Shown here one piece after another: positions 32,464 to 39,464 of a DNA stretch of 58,182 bases. Origin of the DNA: an uncultured Prochlorococcus sp. (GTDB taxonomy: Bacteria; Cyanobacteriota; Cyanobacteriia; PCC-6307; Cyanobiaceae); NCBI GenBank assembly GCA_902563335.1, contig CACEWU010000007.1, forward strand, positions 1 through 58,182, in the 5' to 3' direction. Positions within the stretch are counted from its first letter, which is position 1, and each line of letters opens with the position of its first letter. The notes beneath the pieces are model-generated. The model was not told the origin of the DNA and ran no database searches. It saw nothing but the letters and a program-made list of their open reading frames with translations. The translations under genes and the position numbers were made by a program.

Positions 32464-33864
32464 TTATAAATTATTTAGCTGCTTGTGGATGACTTCTGTT
32501 AAATGTGCTGTCCAAGAGTCAGCAACTGCTGGATCAACAGCTTCAACCATAACTCTTAATAAAGGTTCAGTGCCACTTTCTCTTACAAGTACACGACCAT
32601 CTGTACCCATGGCTTCTTCTGCATTCGCAATGGCTTCTAAAAGTTCTGTACAGCTCTTCCAGTTTTGGCGAAGAACATGATTTGCCATGGGTACATTTGC
32701 CAGCCTTTGAGGGAATGGTTGAAAACTTTGATTCATCCATTCCGAAAGAGTGATTTGTTTCTCATTACATAAGGTCGCAAGTTGTAATGCTGTAAGTAGG
32801 CCATCTCCACAAAGACCATGGGCTGCCGAGAGAATATGCCCTGATTGTTCTCCTCCTAAAGCTGCTCCGTTAGCCAACATGGCAGCATGAACATGATGAT
32901 CTCCTACAGGTGTTCGCTCTAGGATCCCACCTTTTTTTGTCCACGCTCGTTCAAAACCAAGGTTCGACATTACTGTCGCGACAAGTCTTTGATTCGGTAG
33001 ATCGTTCTTTTCATAAAGAATTGATCCCCACAAATACAACACATGATCTCCATCGATAATTCGTCCAGTGCTATCTACAGCTAACATTCGATCGGCATCA
33101 CCATCAAAGGCGAAGCCCATTTCTGCTCCTTGATTAATAACTGCTGAACGTAGTTTTTCAATTTGAGTGGAACCGCAACCTAAGTTGATTCGATTGCCAT
33201 CAGCCTTCCCATGCAGTATGGATACATTTGCTCCTAATGCTTCAAAAACATCTGCACCAAAAGCAGTAGCTGAACCCCAGCAAAGATCAAGAACAATTGG
33301 AATATTACTAAGTCTTCTTTGTTCTACTGAAGCGAGTAACGCTTTTCGATAGTGGTTTAGTAGTTCAGGTCGGTAATAAGATTGACCAAAATTTGTGTTT
33401 TCATGAGGTTTATAACTTTCGATTGAATTTGTATTCAGTTTTGTCTCTATGGTTTTTTGTTGATCTGAATTTATCTTTGCTCCGTCTGCACCAAATACTT
33501 TAATTCCATTGTCCTCCGGGGGATTATGGCTGGCTGAAACCATTAATCCACCAGAGATTCCAAGCTTTTTGATCAAATTAGCTACTGCTGGAGTTGGGCA
33601 AAGACCTAAGGCCCAAACTTCTCTCCCTGCAGTTGTTAGCCCTGCAGTAAGTGCTGCAATTGCCATTGCACCACTTATTCTTGAGTCATTGCCAATCAGG
33701 ACCGGACCCTTGTTGGGCAGTACTGTCCCTACCAAGTAGCCCAAGTTAAGCAACAAAGTCGGAGTTAATACTGCGCCTGCTTTTCCCCGTATACCATCAG
33801 TGCCAAATTTGACGCGACTTTTGTGTAGATGATCTGTAAGCAGGTCCATGGCATTGTTGGCCAT
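32464..33864 (-). CDS. glmM: Phosphoglucosamine mutase
   Basis: GlmM interconverts glucosamine-6-phosphate and glucosamine-1-phosphate on the way to UDP-N-acetylglucosamine for peptidoglycan and lipopolysaccharide. The 466-residue protein has KFGTDGIRGKAG at the N-terminus, the phosphoserine loop GLMVSASHNPPEDNGIK, the magnesium loop DGDADRM, and the C-terminal phosphate site RESGTEPLLRVMVE. ATG at 33864; divergent from txlA with about 55 bases between. Confidence 0.95.
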   Translation of the reverse strand: MANNAMDLLTDHLHKSRVKFGTDGIRGKAGAVLTPTLLLNLGYLVGTVLPNKGPVLIGNDSRISGAMAIAALTAGLTTAGREVWALGLCPTPAVANLIKKLGISGGLMVSASHNPPEDNGIKVFGADGAKINSDQQKTIETKLNTNSIESYKPHENTNFGQSYYRPELLNHYRKALLASVEQRRLSNIPIVLDLCWGSATAFGADVFEALGANVSILHGKADGNRINLGCGSTQIEKLRSAVINQGAEMGFAFDGDADRMLAVDSTGRIIDGDHVLYLWGSILYEKNDLPNQRLVATVMSNLGFERAWTKKGGILERTPVGDHHVHAAMLANGAALGGEQSGHILSAAHGLCGDGLLTALQLATLCNEKQITLSEWMNQSFQPFPQRLANVPMANHVLRQNWKSCTELLEAIANAEEAMGTDGRVLVRESGTEPLLRVMVEAVDPAVADSWTAHLTEVIHKQLNNL

Positions 33865-33919: not shown

Positions 33920-34492
33920 ATGGATGAAAGCCCTAATTCGTCCTCACTTAGTCAGGGACAAAGATTTTTTCTTCTTTTTGCCGTTTTTGTCTTGGCAATA
34001 TTACTTTTCTTTTTGCGAGGAGGTTTTGACTCACAAAAACCACTTGACCAGCTCGCGAGGCGATCTCTTCTTCCAGAGATTGCTTTAACAAATGGCAAGC
34101 CAACAATTTTAGAATTTTATGCTGACTGGTGTGAAATATGCCAGAAAATGGCACCGGCAATGCTTTCTGCAGAAAAAAAATCTTTTCATAAACTTGATTT
34201 TGTCTTGTTAAATGTTGACAATGAGCGTTGGCAAGATTTGATTGATGAATATAAAGTATATGGTATCCCGCAGTTAAATTTTTTTGATGCTTCTGGTTCC
34301 CTAAGAGGAAGTGCTATAGGGCTTAGATCAGAGGATCAAATTGATAAATTAATACAAGCACTTCTTGAAGACCAACCTTTGCCTGAATTTACAGGAGTAG
34401 GAGTAACTGATCAACTTTTACTTTCATCTTTTGAAAGTAAAAATAAAGAGAGTTTCAAGACAGATAAAGTAAAACCAACAGATCATTACTAA
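33920..34492 (+). CDS. txlA: Membrane-anchored thioredoxin-like protein (TxlA/HCF164 type)
   Basis: A single N-terminal membrane helix (about residues 15-32) is followed by a thioredoxin domain with the active site EFYADWCEICQKMAP. The WCEIC motif and single anchor match TxlA and plant HCF164, thylakoid thiol-disulfide proteins needed for cytochrome b6f assembly. The cis-proline loop is seen in YGIPQLNFF. I use ATG 33920 (190 aa) rather than TTG 33914. Confidence 0.88.
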   Translation: MDESPNSSSLSQGQRFFLLFAVFVLAILLFFLRGGFDSQKPLDQLARRSLLPEIALTNGKPTILEFYADWCEICQKMAPAMLSAEKKSFHKLDFVLLNVDNERWQDLIDEYKVYGIPQLNFFDASGSLRGSAIGLRSEDQIDKLIQALLEDQPLPEFTGVGVTDQLLLSSFESKNKESFKTDKVKPTDHY

Positions 34493-34526
34493 ATAGTATT
34501 TTTCTTCTTGAGAAGACTCTAATTGA

Positions 34527-35171
34527 TCAACAATCTTGACCCCACTGTAATGCTTTTGAAACAATTGGAAAATTTTTTAAGAAAATTGCTTTGCATTCAT
34601 TAGCGAGATCCATGTGTTCTTTTTGAGTGCCATGTCCAGACCTGAGCTTGATGTAATGAATCCAAGATCGACAAGAGCCAGTCATATAAATTCTTGTTGG
34701 AGTTGATAACGGCAGAACAAAGCGAGCACATTCTTTAGCAACGCCTGATTTGAGCATTTCTTCGTAAAGAGCTACAGATTCTTGGAAATGATTTTTTATT
34801 TTTTCATTAAAATAAACTCTGATATCATCTGGGATATTGTCAATTGAATTTTGTCTATTTTTTGTATCTTGTCGCCTTAATTCTGGGACTGGTATTTCTC
34901 CCAGCTCTGTACTTTCTGCATATCGTTGAGAAAACTCCTGAAAAGTAAAAGACCTATGTCGTAGTATCTGGGCTGCGATTCCTCTATTTGTTTCTATTTG
35001 CAATGTCATATATGCTTGCTCAAATACGCTCCAATGCTCATTTTTGATGCAGTAAGTAAGTAACTTGCTAAAATCTTCATTGAATTGATTCTTTGGATTG
35101 CTAACTCTGGCAATATATGCCATTGTTTTTTCTGCTTCTGGGGTTACTGAGATTAAATCAACTGTATTCAT
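34527..35171 (-). CDS. thyX: Flavin-dependent thymidylate synthase
   Basis: ThyX methylates dUMP to dTMP using FAD, NADPH and methylene-tetrahydrofolate, replacing ThyA. The ThyX motif is present as RHRSFTFQEFSQRYAE; its second conserved serine precedes QRY, while the first is replaced by Thr. RIYMTGSCRSWIHYIKLRS is also characteristic. Length 214. ATG at 35171 lies 2 bases after the dcd stop, so dcd and thyX are in one transcript, with dcd leading towards dUMP. Confidence 0.95.
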   Translation of the reverse strand: MNTVDLISVTPEAEKTMAYIARVSNPKNQFNEDFSKLLTYCIKNEHWSVFEQAYMTLQIETNRGIAAQILRHRSFTFQEFSQRYAESTELGEIPVPELRRQDTKNRQNSIDNIPDDIRVYFNEKIKNHFQESVALYEEMLKSGVAKECARFVLPLSTPTRIYMTGSCRSWIHYIKLRSGHGTQKEHMDLANECKAIFLKNFPIVSKALQWGQDC

Positions 35172-35173
35172 TT

Positions 35174-35767
35174 TTAAACTTTGGCTAGAGTTACTTTCTC
35201 TGGTTGATGCTGATATTTACCTTTCCGATCACTGTAGGTTGTTTCACATGGATCACCTTCAAAAAAGAGTAATTGACATATCCCTTCATTCGCATATATT
35301 CGGCAGTCAGCACCTGAACTATTGCTAAATTCTAGAGTTAAATGACCTTCCCAACTTGCCTCTGCTGGAGTTGTATTTACAATTATCCCAAGGCGAGCAT
35401 ATGTACTTTTGCCAAGACAAATCACAGTAATATTCTTTGGCACTTTCATTTTTTCAAAGGCAACTCCTAGTCCATAAGAATGTGCTGGGAGTATGAAATA
35501 CTCTCCATCTGGATCTTTTTGTAAAGGAGTTGATTCAAGATTTGCAGGATTAAATTGCTTTGGGTTCATTACAGTTCCAGGAACATGGCGAAAAATTAGG
35601 AACTCTTTCGAGGAAAGTCGTAGGTCGTATCCGTATGAAGAGCATCCAAAACTGAGAACAGGTTGTTGGTTGTCTTCAGGTCTTAAATGTCGAACAAGAT
35701 TTGCTTCAAATGGCTGGAGCATTCCTGCTTTTGCTTGTTCGATTATCCAGCGGTCGTTTTTAAGCAT
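35174..35767 (-). CDS. dcd: dCTP deaminase
   Basis: Dcd deaminates dCTP to dUTP, the precursor of dUMP for thymidylate synthesis. The 197-residue protein belongs to the dUTPase-fold family: SFGCSSYGYDLRLS, GKSTYARLGIIVNTTPAEA with the catalytic Glu and SWEGHLTLEFSN. Whether it is the bifunctional dCTP deaminase/dUTPase cannot be told by eye. The ATG overlaps the stop of the cobO-like gene by one base (TAATG), and thyX follows immediately. Confidence 0.93.
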   Translation of the reverse strand: MLKNDRWIIEQAKAGMLQPFEANLVRHLRPEDNQQPVLSFGCSSYGYDLRLSSKEFLIFRHVPGTVMNPKQFNPANLESTPLQKDPDGEYFILPAHSYGLGVAFEKMKVPKNITVICLGKSTYARLGIIVNTTPAEASWEGHLTLEFSNSSGADCRIYANEGICQLLFFEGDPCETTYSDRKGKYQHQPEKVTLAKV

Positions 35768-36366
35768 TAGAAGCCACAGCGAAATTCAGTTACTTGATCA
35801 GCCATTTTCATGATCTCTGTTGGAATGGCTGGTCCAGTGAGGATTACATCCATACCATTTGGGCGTTGATTCAAGGTTGAGATTAAATCTGTTGCTTGGA
35901 GATAGCCAAGAGATACTGCTAGCCCAACTTCATCTAATACAAGTTGGTTAAGGTCATTGGCCAGAATTCGCTTTTTGCACATTTCCCAAATCTCTAGAAC
36001 AGCTTCTTGTGGTTCAGGAATCCCATCTTTTTTAACTTGCTGGATGTGCTTCTCCTCGAGGCAGGTTGAGATTGCGGGCCTGACCCACTCTAGGTTTCCA
36101 CAAAGACGAACAATTCCATTTTTGCCTTGGTTGACTCCTCCTTTTAAAAATTGAGCAACCATTACCTGGCTTCCTAATCCAGCTGCTCTTAGAGCCTCGC
36201 TGAGCACATTTGAGAAACTTCCCCTGTAAGGAGCTGTGTGTACTTTAAGTTGACCTTCAGGAACTACAAGATGAAGTGGTCGGTTGGCAACAGCTTTTAA
36301 TCCAGAACTAATTTCGTTCTTTATTTGACTTATTGAGGAATGTTTAGGAATCAGGCTTGCGGTCAT
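35767..36366 (-). CDS. CobO/BtuR-like corrinoid adenosyltransferase homologue lacking a Walker A motif
   Basis: CobO/BtuR transfers an adenosyl group from ATP to cob(I)alamin. Much of the family's fold is recognisable: ALRAAGLGSQVMVAQFLKGG, LDQ-type LNQLVLDEVGLAVSLGYL, TLNQRPNGMDVILTGPAIPT and MADQVTEFRCGF. However, where BtuR has the ATP-binding GNGKGKTTAA this protein has APYRGSFSNVLSEA, with no GKT. It may bind ATP differently or have another role. I chose ATG 36366 (199 aa, MTASLIPKHSS); the frame stays open to 36450. Co-transcribed with dcd and thyX. Confidence 0.75.
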   Translation of the reverse strand: MTASLIPKHSSISQIKNEISSGLKAVANRPLHLVVPEGQLKVHTAPYRGSFSNVLSEALRAAGLGSQVMVAQFLKGGVNQGKNGIVRLCGNLEWVRPAISTCLEEKHIQQVKKDGIPEPQEAVLEIWEMCKKRILANDLNQLVLDEVGLAVSLGYLQATDLISTLNQRPNGMDVILTGPAIPTEIMKMADQVTEFRCGF

Positions 36367-36505
36367 GAATATGCCAAAAATCGGGAAAAGAAGCTGTCCC
36401 TCAAATCTAGCGGTGAGTTTCAGTCCTACAAGATATATGACACTATCCATGGTGTCTTGCTAGGCATACGATGGGTTTTTGGTCGTTACACTCCTAAGTA
36501 CTCCA

Positions 36506-37240
36506 ATGTTCCACAATCCTAAGAATCGAGCTAATGGACGCCTGCCTAATGAATTAAGGCCTTTTGCTATTCAATGGCATCCTATGGGTTTTGCACTTAG
36601 TTCATTAATTATTCGAACTGGTCAAACAGCGGTTCTATGTAGTGTGTCCGTTGAGGACAGTGTTCCTCGCTGGAGAGAAGGTCAGGGGAAGGGATGGCTA
36701 AGCGCAGAGTATCGGTTATTGCCTGGCTCTACTCCTCAACGTCAAAAGCGTGAGTTAATGAAGCTTTCTGGGCGAACCCAAGAAATCCAACGCCTCATAG
36801 GAAGGAGCTTGAGAGCAGTAATAGATATGGATGCTCTCGGAGAAAGAACCCTGTTAGTTGATTGCGATGTTATTCAGGCTGATGCAGGGACACGTACGGC
36901 TTCCATTACAGGAGCCTGGATTGCAGTTGCAAGAGCATTGAACATTTTGTTGGAGCGAAAAACTATCCAAAATCAGCCTTTGGAAGATCAGGTTGCAGCA
37001 GTTTCTGTGGGGTTACTCGAAGACACTGCATTATTAGATCTTGACTACAAGGAAGACTCAGTGGCTGATGTAGATCTAAACGTTGTAATGGCCTCTGATG
37101 GAAGGCTTTTAGAGATTCAAGGCACCGCTGAGGGATCTCCATTTACTAGAGATCAATTGAACGCACTCCTTGATATGGCTGAACCTGGTTTAAAGAGTTT
37201 GCATGCTTCACAACTTTCAGCTTTACAGCAATTAAGTTAA
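36506..37240 (+). CDS. rph: Ribonuclease PH
   Basis: RNase PH is a phosphorolytic 3'-exonuclease that trims tRNA 3' ends. The 244-residue protein shows GQTAVLCSVSVEDSVP, GWLSAEYRLLPGSTPQR, KLSGRTQEIQRLIGRSLRAV, the phosphate-site DCDVIQADAGTRTASITGAW and a C-terminal EIQGTAEGSPF. I chose ATG 36506 (MFHNPKNRANGRLPNE); the frame is open to 36479. ntcA follows about 67 bases later. Confidence 0.95.
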   Translation: MFHNPKNRANGRLPNELRPFAIQWHPMGFALSSLIIRTGQTAVLCSVSVEDSVPRWREGQGKGWLSAEYRLLPGSTPQRQKRELMKLSGRTQEIQRLIGRSLRAVIDMDALGERTLLVDCDVIQADAGTRTASITGAWIAVARALNILLERKTIQNQPLEDQVAAVSVGLLEDTALLDLDYKEDSVADVDLNVVMASDGRLLEIQGTAEGSPFTRDQLNALLDMAEPGLKSLHASQLSALQQLS

Positions 37241-37307: not shown

Positions 37308-38042
37308 ATGGATGGCGCTAAAAGAGGGTTCACTCGTTATTCACCTCAGTCAAATGAACAAGGTATTAAAGCGGTGACTATCGAGAACGCACATATCAAG
37401 AGAAACCTTCAAGATGTAATCAAAACTCTTGATGGTGCAAATACAGAGTTTGTAGAGAGATCTAAAACCATTTTTTTTCCTGGAGATCCTGCTGAAAGAG
37501 TTTATTTAATTCGTCGTGGAGCGGTGAGGTTATCGCGAGTTTATGAATCGGGAGAGGAAATTACTGTTGCACTATTGCGGGAGAACAGTCTTTTTGGGGT
37601 TTTGTCTTTACTTACAGGCAATAGATCAGATCGTTTTTACCACGCGGTTGCCTTTACGCGAGTAGAGATGGTGACTGCCCCGGCTGCGTCTGTTCGCAGG
37701 GCAATAGAAGATGACACAAGTGTGGGGTTGCTGCTTCTACAGGGTTTGTCCAGCAGGGTCTTACAGACAGAAACAATGATTGAAACTTTGACCCACCGTG
37801 ACATGTCTTCTCGCTTAGTAAGTTTTCTGCTTGTGCTATGTAGGGATTTTGGAGTTCCTGACGCCGATGGAATAACTATTGACCTACGTTTATCTCATCA
37901 AGCGATAGCCGAGGCTATAGGCTCCACGAGAGTAACTATTACTCGTTTATTGGGAGATTTACGGAACTCAGGTTTAGTCCAGATCCACCGTAAGAAAATC
38001 ACCGTTTTAGATCCGATTGCGCTTGCCAAGAGATTCAATTAA
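37308..38042 (+). CDS. ntcA: Global nitrogen regulator NtcA
   Basis: NtcA is the CRP-family activator that, with 2-oxoglutarate and PipX, controls cyanobacterial nitrogen genes through GTA-N8-TAC sites. A cyclic-nucleotide-binding-like domain (about residues 45-150) is followed by the dimer helix and a winged helix-turn-helix with [20 protein letters not shown], the family's recognition helix. ATG at 37308 gives 244 residues, with an N-terminus about 20 residues longer than typical, so a downstream start is possible. No NtcA box was seen in the 67 bases upstream. A matching box is present ahead of amt (51820). Confidence 0.95.
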
Positions 38043-38106: not shown

Positions 38107-39036
38107 GTGACTGGCTGGCTGTTAATACTTACTTTGCTATTGCTTGGTGGAATTCTCTCCACCCTTGGCGATCGGCTTGGTAGCCGCGTAGGTAAGGCTC
38201 GTTTGAGCATATTTAATTTGAGACCTCGTAGTACTGCTGTGTTAATAACAGTTCTTACTGGCAGCTTAATTAGTGCACTTTCTTTGGGCTTAATGCTGCT
38301 TGTGAGTAGACAATTAAGGGTGGGATTATTTGAGTTAGATAATCTTCAGTCAAAGATAAAAATTGCACAAAATGAGCTTAAAAAACGTGAGAGTAATTTA
38401 ATTGCGTTGCGAAGAGGAGATGTTGTTTTAAGGAGCGGTCAATCTCTTGCTACAGGAACATTTAAACTAGATAGTCCTAATCAGGCTGGGAATGTAATAG
38501 ATCGTTTGCTACAAAACGCAAATATTGAGGCCTATCGAAGAGTACTTCCAGGGGAAAATCCAAATAGGCAGATCTTGTTAGTTCCTAGACAAGATATTAA
38601 AAAATTGAAACTAATTATCGAAAAAAAAGGGACTTGGGTTGTGAGCATTCGATCTGCAGCTAATGTCTTATTAGGAGAAAATTTGGTTTATGCATTTCCA
38701 GAAATTAGACCAAATGTTACTATTGTTAAAAGGGGTGAAGTGTTAGCTAGAACTTCTATTCAGACAGATGAAAGGACTTCAGAGTTGATTCGAAATAAAA
38801 TCAATCTACTTCTTGCATCGACGTTGGCTGAAGTAAAAAGGAGAGGATCTTTAAGTTCAAGGTTGGAATTTGATCCAAATTCAATTAATGAGTTAGGGAA
38901 GGCATTGATGACAAGAAATATTAGCGAGATAGACCTTGAGTCAGTTTCAATAAGAACTAGCTATACAGCTGACACTGTGGCTATTTTATTAAGGTTAAAA
39001 GTAAAAGATGGCTTAAAAGAAACAGTTCAGCTATGA
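38107..39036 (+). CDS. DUF3084 membrane-anchored protein
   Basis: The 309-residue protein starts with a hydrophobic helix (about residues 2-20), then GDRLGSRVGKARLSIFNLRP, a second helix (about 45-68) and a coiled-coil stretch (about 78-105). This matches DUF3084, a family of unknown function found in cyanobacteria. GTG at 38107. The TGA overlaps the ATG of the RNase H-like gene by 4 bases, so the pair is translationally coupled. Confidence 0.78.
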   Translation: MTGWLLILTLLLLGGILSTLGDRLGSRVGKARLSIFNLRPRSTAVLITVLTGSLISALSLGLMLLVSRQLRVGLFELDNLQSKIKIAQNELKKRESNLIALRRGDVVLRSGQSLATGTFKLDSPNQAGNVIDRLLQNANIEAYRRVLPGENPNRQILLVPRQDIKKLKLIIEKKGTWVVSIRSAANVLLGENLVYAFPEIRPNVTIVKRGEVLARTSIQTDERTSELIRNKINLLLASTLAEVKRRGSLSSRLEFDPNSINELGKALMTRNISEIDLESVSIRTSYTADTVAILLRLKVKDGLKETVQL

Positions 39037-39464
39037 GCTTTTTGGTTTCTTTAGACCCCGGAAGTAGCAAATGTGGCTTAGTCCTAGCTGATGTTAAGTC
39101 TAGGTTAGTTCTAGAAGGGAAGATTGTAGATTCTGATGCGGTGATTCATATGATCAATAAGTGGCAGGAAAAATTTACGTGTAGGAAACTAATACTTGGC
39201 AATGGAACGAGCAGTAAATATTGGATCAAGCCACTTTCTGAATTGTGTGTAGTTGAGGTTGTTGATGAAAAAGGATCTACTTTGCGAGCCCGCGATCGGT
39301 ATTGGGAACTTTGGCCGCCGCTAGGTTGGCGACAATATATTCCAAGAGGATTGATTCTTCCACCTAATAATTTAGATGCGGTAGCTGCACTTGTTTTGCT
39401 TGAAGACTATTTAGGAGCCAAACTTAAATGGTCAGGACCTCCCGTTTTTAAAAACGAGCTCTAA
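39033..39464 (+). CDS. RNase H-fold (RuvC/YqgF-like) protein
   Basis: The 143-residue protein has the pattern of a RuvC/YqgF-type fold: an Asp in the first strand (VSLDPGSSKCGL), a middle strand KLILGNGTSS, an acidic residue in VVEVVDEKG, and a last Asp in PPNNLDAVAALVLL. These would be the metal-binding carboxylates of a Holliday-junction-resolvase-like nuclease. Function is unproven. It is coupled to the DUF3084 gene, and its 3' end overlaps the convergent DUF3146 gene by 17 bases. Confidence 0.7.
   Translation: MSFLVSLDPGSSKCGLVLADVKSRLVLEGKIVDSDAVIHMINKWQEKFTCRKLILGNGTSSKYWIKPLSELCVVEVVDEKGSTLRARDRYWELWPPLGWRQYIPRGLILPPNNLDAVAALVLLEDYLGAKLKWSGPPVFKNEL

Follow-up and report, generated by a model that had tools for sequence, protein, structure and literature searches.

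The window analysed here is a stretch of 58,182 nucleotides (contig CACEWU010000007.1 of assembly GCA_902563335.1, positions 1 to 58,182 of the forward strand) from an uncultured Prochlorococcus sp., whose genome assembly amounts to 1.25 Mb and is 65.4% complete. On its minus strand lies a gene for a CobO-type protein, a paralogue of the corrinoid adenosyltransferases, in which the P-loop of the family is missing and whose presence in cyanobacterial genomes goes with that of the class II ribonucleotide reductase (RNR), the class dependent on adenosylcobalamin (AdoCbl). The gene and the positions in it on which the argument turns are as follows.

35767..36366, minus strand: P-loop-less CobO paralogue of the PRK07414 clade, 199 amino acids (assigned by PF02572, NF005648 and clade placement)
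36211..36234, minus strand: residues 45-52, APYRGSFS, replacing Walker A GNGKGKTT of CobA (gap-free alignment to CobA, 86 orthologues)
36223-36225, minus strand: codon of Arg48 (loop alignment)
35929..35934, minus strand: Asp145-Glu146, the retained Walker B/metal-site pair (D127-E128 of CobA)
35830..35838, minus strand: T177-G178-P179, with Pro where the CobO motif TGR has its arginine (alignment)

The 199-residue open reading frame (ORF) starts with ATG and is real; a longer in-frame alternative starts at 36450, and several relatives open with a similar MTAS..., which favours the shorter start. PF02572 (CobA_CobO_BtuR) is the sole Pfam match of the protein at E-values up to 1, covering residues 38-196 (E 6e-25; 88.8 bits, cut-off 25.7), and the PF01923 profile of PduO/EutT-type enzymes is not matched. 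The top NCBIfam model is NF005648/PRK07414 (E 7e-46, 156 bits), under its curated equivalog cut-off of 248. Among the matches listed, the best named relatives are AG-numbered Prochlorococcus records, probably single-cell genomes, with about 59-63% protein identity.

In a profile alignment, TGNGKGKTT of Salmonella CobA (residues 35-43) aligns without gaps with TAPYRGSFS (residues 44-52) of the window protein, pairing T35..K41-T42-T with T44..S50-F51-S, the numbers being counted from the alignment. We extended the comparison to 106 domain rows: 87 rows for 86 orthologous proteins sampled across Cyanobacteriia (L071 supplies two overlapping rows; L002 and L003 were excluded as overlap copies of L001 and L004), and 19 P-loop rows consisting of seven canonical CobO, five first and five second domains of tandem CobO, and two from another part of the phylum. 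The motif G.GKGK[ST] was found in the domain of 0/86 orthologous proteins and in 19/19 domains of canonical and tandem CobO. At the Walker A lysine position the 87 clade rows have F (45), S (38), L (2), M (1) or a gap (1) and never K; one residue further on, 81 rows have F or Y. Where CobA has K39 and the window protein Arg48, R stands in 85 of the 87. The arginine of the TGR motif, present in all 19 P-loop domains, is replaced in every clade row (P in 64, T in 12, S in 8, three others), and the Walker B pair is kept (D in 84/87, E in 86/87). What the clade lacks in comparison with CobA is the Lys and Thr of Walker A, the TGR arginine and two of the loop's three glycines; it has instead a conserved loop Arg together with invariant or near-invariant Q80-G81 and L92-x-W94-x-R96. 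Because 86 orthologues are without the motif and all 19 P-loop domains have it, chance or sequencing error is excluded. A P-loop elsewhere in the window protein was also ruled out: GK[ST] occurs nowhere in it, nor in any row of a 50-row alignment of which it is the first row; among the 86 orthologous frames, GK[ST] lies outside the loop position in two (L020 and L055).

These results bear on several statements of a first-pass annotation made from the letters of the window alone. Its central observation, that GNGKGKT is replaced by APYRGSFSNV, holds in the gap-free alignment, and the alignment of cyanobacterial homologues that it proposed shows the motif to be absent from 86/86; an intact P-loop elsewhere in the protein, which it named as a refutation, was not found. 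It had limited the CobO match to the C-terminal two thirds, and this has to be corrected, as the PF02572 match includes the P-loop region. Nor is the remodelling specific to "this lineage" as it had implied, the loss being old and spread over the class. The search for another adenosyltransferase (PduO, EutT) that it proposed gave none: PF01923 was over cut-off in 0/29 genomes (with a weak match of 22.9 bits in G010), in a search that matched 9/14 control genomes, and a PduO/EutT-type replacement is thus ruled out in these genomes. The window's own genome encodes instead a tandem CobO of 410 amino acids with two P-loops (NF005647, 774 bits). With this enzyme at hand, the adenosylation capacity of the genome is not in question as judged from its genes. 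Canonical CobO was not found in this 65%-complete genome, which has only three PF02572 domain matches, and is present in more complete relatives.

The P-loop-less proteins form one clade. In a tree of 46 rows, a branch with 100/100 support sets their 27 rows apart; canonical CobO (100/99) and each of the tandem domains (98/97 for one, 100/99 for the other) are separated likewise. The clade is shared with members that pass the NF005648 cut-off, pointing to common descent; these are, like the window protein, of a single domain and about 180-200 amino acids, whereas the picocyanobacterial branch falls under the curated cut-off, which was passed in 67 of 386 genomes of the phylum and in 0 of the 58 listed from the window's family. 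The median dN/dS (ratio of non-synonymous to synonymous substitution rates) was 0.088 over 169 pairs, which share loci and are not independent, and 0.068 for the neighbouring dcd in 144 of the same pairs; 15 residues are invariant across 34 diverse rows. From the class-wide alignment, the single clade and the low dN/dS, we conclude that the loss of the P-loop is old and fixed and that the gene is under strong purifying selection.

An AlphaFold2 model of the window protein, built from 50 picocyanobacterial rows, has a mean predicted local distance difference test (pLDDT) of 81.4 and a predicted template modelling score (pTM) of 0.75. Its poorly determined parts are residues 1-30 and about 101-120, and most blocks outside these are over 90. 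The loop is predicted to lie between strand 40-44 and helix 50-63, which is the P-loop position. A fold search of PDB with the model gave CobA structures first: 1g64_A (Z 19.9, 151 aligned, root mean square deviation (rmsd) 2.7), with the fold extending over residues 37-199, and 4hut (Z 19.9, 167 aligned, rmsd 6.9). RecA and thymidine kinase formed the next group with Z of about 13, and a function like theirs was set aside in view of this gap. Foldseek likewise put CobA chains at the top, and a search of PDB by sequence gave CobA plus one marginal match (E 0.084). The protein is thus predicted to share with Salmonella CobA the fold, the Walker B Asp-Glu and the overall order of motifs.

We next describe the distribution of the gene. 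NF005648 was run against 386 genomes of the phylum (of those listed, 186 are in the window's class), and the result separated presence from absence: the best E-value was either weaker than 1e-22 (absent) or stronger than 1e-36 (present), with none between. A first set of 80 genomes comprised 48 genomes of the class that lack the gene, 31 that have it, and G424 with a broken copy; a second, held-out set comprised 80 further genomes with the gene, so that both sets cover 160 of the 186 listed class members, the other 26 being picocyanobacteria. The models used for the first set were TIGR02505 (class II RNR, RTPR), PF00268 (class I R2), NF005647 (tandem CobO) and TIGR02274 (dcd). The profile PF02867 misses RTPR, with no match in G275, G326 and G424, all of which carry it.

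Among the 31 genomes of the first set with the gene, TIGR02505 was over cut-off in 28 and PF00268 in none; in G051 and G360, RTPR is split, and no single piece reaches the cut-off (best E 1.2e-73 and 1.3e-51). The 48 genomes without the gene presented the opposite picture, 41 having PF00268 only, one both classes (G245), five TIGR02505 only (G108, G171, G366, G408 and G326) and one neither (G105). In the held-out set, TIGR02505 was over cut-off in 79 of the 80 genomes, and the remaining one, G337, has a class II NrdJ_Z with an intein (L264:1258-4338, minus strand; 412.7 bits against 399.95); PF00268 was found in two (G175 and G215), both alongside TIGR02505. Taking the sets together and leaving out G424, which has TIGR02505, class II RNR is over cut-off in 108/111 genomes with the gene (110 when the split genes of G051 and G360 are counted as carriers) and in 6/48 without it, and class I R2 occurs in 2/111 and 42/48, respectively; Fisher's exact test gives p <1e-27 for either class, kinship and unequal sampling being ignored. 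We hold it highly probable that the P-loop-less CobO is functionally tied to class II RNR. The first-pass annotation had mentioned a B12-dependent RNR as a possible consumer of the coenzyme and a different function as an alternative to remodelled ATP binding; the co-occurrence lends strong support to the former and also speaks for the latter.

Several features of the RNR genes were observed in the course of this search. In many cyanobacteria, class II RNR genes are split at recurring model positions (about 280, 378-387 and 517) by long in-frame insertions, which are probably inteins. In genus g52 the RTPR halves lie far apart (G051:C1:2606770-2609079 and 2693823-2696006; G283:C1:1109741-1110859 and 1830880-1831911), as would be expected of a gene in two parts whose products a split intein joins. 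The genome with neither RNR model matched, G105 (G105:C1), is a single contig, 99% complete, and has a tandem CobO.

The tandem CobO, NF005647/PRK07413 or the Tery_4685 type, belongs to the same superfamily as the P-loop-less protein and differs from it in having two domains and intact loops; in the five examined, both domains keep G.GKGKS. NF005647 was over cut-off in 38 of the 80 first-set genomes, namely the 31 with the P-loop-less gene, the five with TIGR02505 only, G424 and G105. R2 was found in 0/38, and the 42 genomes without NF005647 are exactly the 42 with R2. The tandem CobO thus tracks class II RNR more closely than the P-loop-less gene does. Pieces of tandem CobO were observed in two other genomes: a 77-position N-terminal piece in a class I genome (G219:C76:21206-21436) and a C-terminal piece at a contig edge in the genome with both RNR classes (G245:C109:44-439). 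They are possibly remnants of an RNR switch.

A similar combination is known in a phage. According to the part of the report available to us, the cyanosiphovirus P-SS2 has a class II RNR, cobO, dcd and a thymidylate synthase (PMC2784084). Many cyanophage RNRs once labelled class II have been reassigned to class I, and marine hosts carry class II RNR, as far as the accessible text of PMC6370689 goes. For P-SS2 we could rule out such mislabelling, as its RNR scores 646.8 bits to the RTPR model (cut-off 340), and its CobO is of the tandem type with two P-loops (395 bits to NF005647, cut-off 426). A phage carrying class II RNR together with tandem CobO fits a functional tie. The P-SS2 (GQ334450.1) regions, assigned by profile scores, are as follows.

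L263:5503-6537: tandem CobO
L266:854-3424: RTPR

The gene also has a conserved neighbourhood. The genes around it in the window are as follows.

35174..35767, minus strand: dcd, dCTP deaminase (TIGR02274, 115 bits, cut-off 92.8)
34527..35171, minus strand: thyX, FAD-dependent thymidylate synthase, 2 bases past dcd (TIGR02170, 173.7 bits, cut-off 87.9)
36479..37240, plus strand: rph, ribonuclease PH, the divergent upstream neighbour (TIGR01966, 328 bits)
37308..38042, plus strand: ntcA, global nitrogen regulator, divergent upstream (TIGR03697, 369 bits)
32464-33864: glmM

At the junction TAATG, the ATG of dcd overlaps the stop of the P-loop-less CobO. Three samples of loci were compared: 38 from the window's family, 80 named picocyanobacterial ones (12 of them shared with the first sample) and 48 from other families, where 30 loci extend just 1.5 kb per side. 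In this order of samples, the gene is followed directly on its strand by dcd in 38/38, 80/80 and 25/48 loci, thyX then follows in 23/38, 39/80 and 0/48, ntcA is divergent upstream in 38/38, 78/80 and 0/48, and rph likewise in 21/38, 53/80 and 30/48. RTPR reduces triphosphates, and dCTP deamination is then a natural route to dUTP and dTMP; the pairing with dcd is therefore sensible. We considered whether the presence of dcd itself drives the pattern of the gene and rejected this, as dcd is over cut-off in 18/42 class I genomes, which lack the gene; the P-loop-less gene does not follow dcd, though dcd leans the same way. One class I genome has three dcd-like genes in tandem (G304:C262:17543-19149) and a fourth elsewhere.

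The nearest published account that we found among open-licence PMC papers is that of Walworth et al. (2018), who, in the part of the paper available to us, report that Trichodesmium and other cyanobacteria have three genes with a btuR domain: a double-domain type that also occurs in the Paulinella chromatophore and a cyanophage, a single-domain type forming a clade restricted to cyanobacteria, and one common to other bacteria (PMC5816740). All three products were detected as protein, and different substrates of adenosylation were suggested. From length and the distribution restricted to cyanobacteria, our P-loop-less clade is probably the clade of Tery_2088 in that study. The accessible text contains no mention of the loss of the P-loop or of a dependence on RNR class, and no published statement on either was found among the open-licence papers, as far as their available text goes. 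The existence of three copies has thus been known since 2018, and what is new here, as far as these papers go, is the link of the distribution of the P-loop-less copy to RNR class.

The explanation that we regard as the best, while giving it somewhat less than an even chance, is that the gene encodes a pseudoenzyme paralogue of CobO that serves organisms using class II RNR. Judging from the residues replaced, the protein is very probably not a catalyst of the CobA type: it would no longer bind the triphosphate of ATP in the manner of CobA and would not adenosylate. Because the protein keeps the fold and the Asp-Glu pair but not the parts that contact the ATP phosphates, and P-loop-bearing CobO proteins stand alongside, a pseudoenzyme acting on the corrinoid side for NrdJ, the class II RNR, is the simplest reading. 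What its actual job might be is put forward more tentatively. By analogy with the escort role of human ATR, hand-over or quality control of the coenzyme is the job that we prefer, though at less than even odds: in the least certain steps, the protein may hold the corrinoid (adenosyl-pseudocobalamin in cyanobacteria), alone or with the tandem CobO, and may hand the coenzyme to NrdJ or take damaged coenzyme back. The fuller version, a dedicated delivery and quality-control factor for class II RNR that was derived from a coenzyme-making enzyme through loss of its ATP site, we consider doubtful as a whole. It would form, together with the tandem CobO, a loading station that feeds adenosyl-pseudocobalamin straight to NrdJ, and co-expression with dCTP deaminase would keep the supplies of dNTP and coenzyme in step.

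The analogy concerns human ATR (MMAB) and MeaB/MMAA, which serve AdoCbl to methylmalonyl-CoA mutase. Human ATR is an enzyme of the PduO type. In the accessible text of one paper, it makes AdoCbl and escorts the coenzyme to its mutase (PMC8633584), which resembles the escort mode considered here by analogy only; unlike the P-loop-less protein, ATR is not homologous to BtuR/CobO according to the available part of another (PMC8123684). MeaB differs in being a GTPase, and the proposed client here is a ribonucleotide reductase and not a mutase. We know of no factor dedicated to cofactor delivery to any class II RNR, though no search was aimed at such factors, and, to our knowledge, neither the route by which AdoCbl reaches class II RNR nor its renewal there has been described.

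Several observations weigh against the pseudoenzyme explanation or call for caution. The first concerns kinship. On a tree of rpoB, built by a quick method for 79 of the 80 first-set genomes (G181 had no rpoB match), the minimum numbers of changes are seven for class I R2, seven for tandem CobO and nine for the P-loop-less gene, and all branches of the best tree yield seven independent pairs. When only well-supported branches are used, four pairs are left; in these, the tandem CobO changes opposite to R2 in 4/4 and the P-loop-less gene in 3.6/4 on average, none being reversed, and the p value of the sign test is 0.125, the lowest attainable with four pairs. With so few supported independent pairs, the Fisher p values overstate independence. 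The direction is consistent, and the safely independent events are few.

The second concerns exceptions. The window's own genome shows no RTPR, which we ascribe to its 65% completeness, though this cannot be proved, and G036, a genome of the window's family that is 64% complete, has only a distant match of the canonical CobO type. Seven genomes have the tandem CobO and no intact P-loop-less gene, six of them using class II RNR (the five named above and G424) and the seventh, G105, matching neither RNR model; because of these, the P-loop-less CobO is to be regarded as accessory and not as a strict requirement. In G424 the copy (L265, G424:C1:1598676-1601215) has a frameshift and seven stops across the match, while NrdJ and the tandem CobO remain, and the size and replicon number of this genome suggest an eroding symbiont genome. 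Further, the dcd gene is over cut-off more commonly in genomes with the gene (23/31) than in the R2 genomes, and no Rfam riboswitch, the cobalamin riboswitch included, was found at gathering score within the window. Lastly, the columns matching Phe91 and Trp93 of CobA, which we take to be the aromatic pair that activates the corrinoid, are mostly Cys and Asp/Ser, with gaps nearby that make the alignment less sure; corrinoid binding could thus have been lost too.

Other explanations have to be considered against this background. The protein may be a non-catalytic partner that assembles with the tandem CobO and tunes its activity, stability or corrinoid specificity without direct contact with NrdJ. 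In all 31 genomes of the first set the gene is accompanied by the tandem CobO, and the seven genomes with tandem CobO and no intact copy are what an optional partner allows. The two genes, however, are on different contigs in the window's genome and about 3 kb apart in G051, and the neighbour that has been conserved is dcd rather than the tandem CobO; we regard this explanation as rather unlikely.

A second alternative looks to that neighbour, the protein being a regulator or partner of Dcd, or a sensor of nucleotide or coenzyme that balances dCTP and dUTP with RNR. The invariable position of dcd directly downstream in the window's family and the named picocyanobacteria, found also in about half of the other-family loci, and the overlapping codons in the window speak for it, as does the resemblance of the fold to RecA and thymidine kinase. 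The class I R2 genomes that have dcd over cut-off, none of them with the P-loop-less gene, count against it; moreover, dcd is under cut-off or absent in 8/31 genomes with the gene, which follows RNR class more closely, and we consider this alternative unlikely.

Still less probable in our view is an active ATP:corrinoid adenosyltransferase whose ATP site has been rebuilt so that Arg48, together with other residues, would stand in for the P-loop lysine. The near-invariance of Arg48, the kept Asp-Glu pair and the proposal of Walworth et al. (2018; PMC5816740) that the products of the three btuR copies differ in the compounds they adenosylate are in its favour, and the replacement of both Walker A residues, two glycines and the TGR arginine is hard to reconcile with it; as two kinds of P-loop CobO are present in complete relatives, there is no activity in need of explanation. 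A decaying, functionless copy is very improbable, because, although the gene is broken in G424 and some genomes with class II RNR lack it, its dN/dS of about 0.09, its invariant residues and its single class-wide clade indicate the contrary.

The pseudoenzyme explanation has consequences for the interpretation of genomes. DNA synthesis in Prochlorococcus and Synechococcus has class II RNR as its B12-dependent gate, and the ocean offers little B12; the P-loop-less and tandem CobO, which come and go with this RNR in several lineages, provide two named candidate genes. The name of PRK07414, "P-loop NTPase family protein", is misleading, as the CobO P-loop was found in 0/86 members examined, and labels of adenosyltransferase may sit on a non-enzyme and inflate the counts of genes for B12 adenosylation in cyanobacteria.

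Two minor observations on the window are added. A scan for promoters and terminators over 34450-36700 gave numbers near those of shuffled sequences (6 against a mean of 5.0, and 3 against 1.9). At 39033-39464, a small ORF after the gene of a DUF3084 protein has a weak, sub-threshold match of the RuvX type (21.4 bits, cut-off 29.2).

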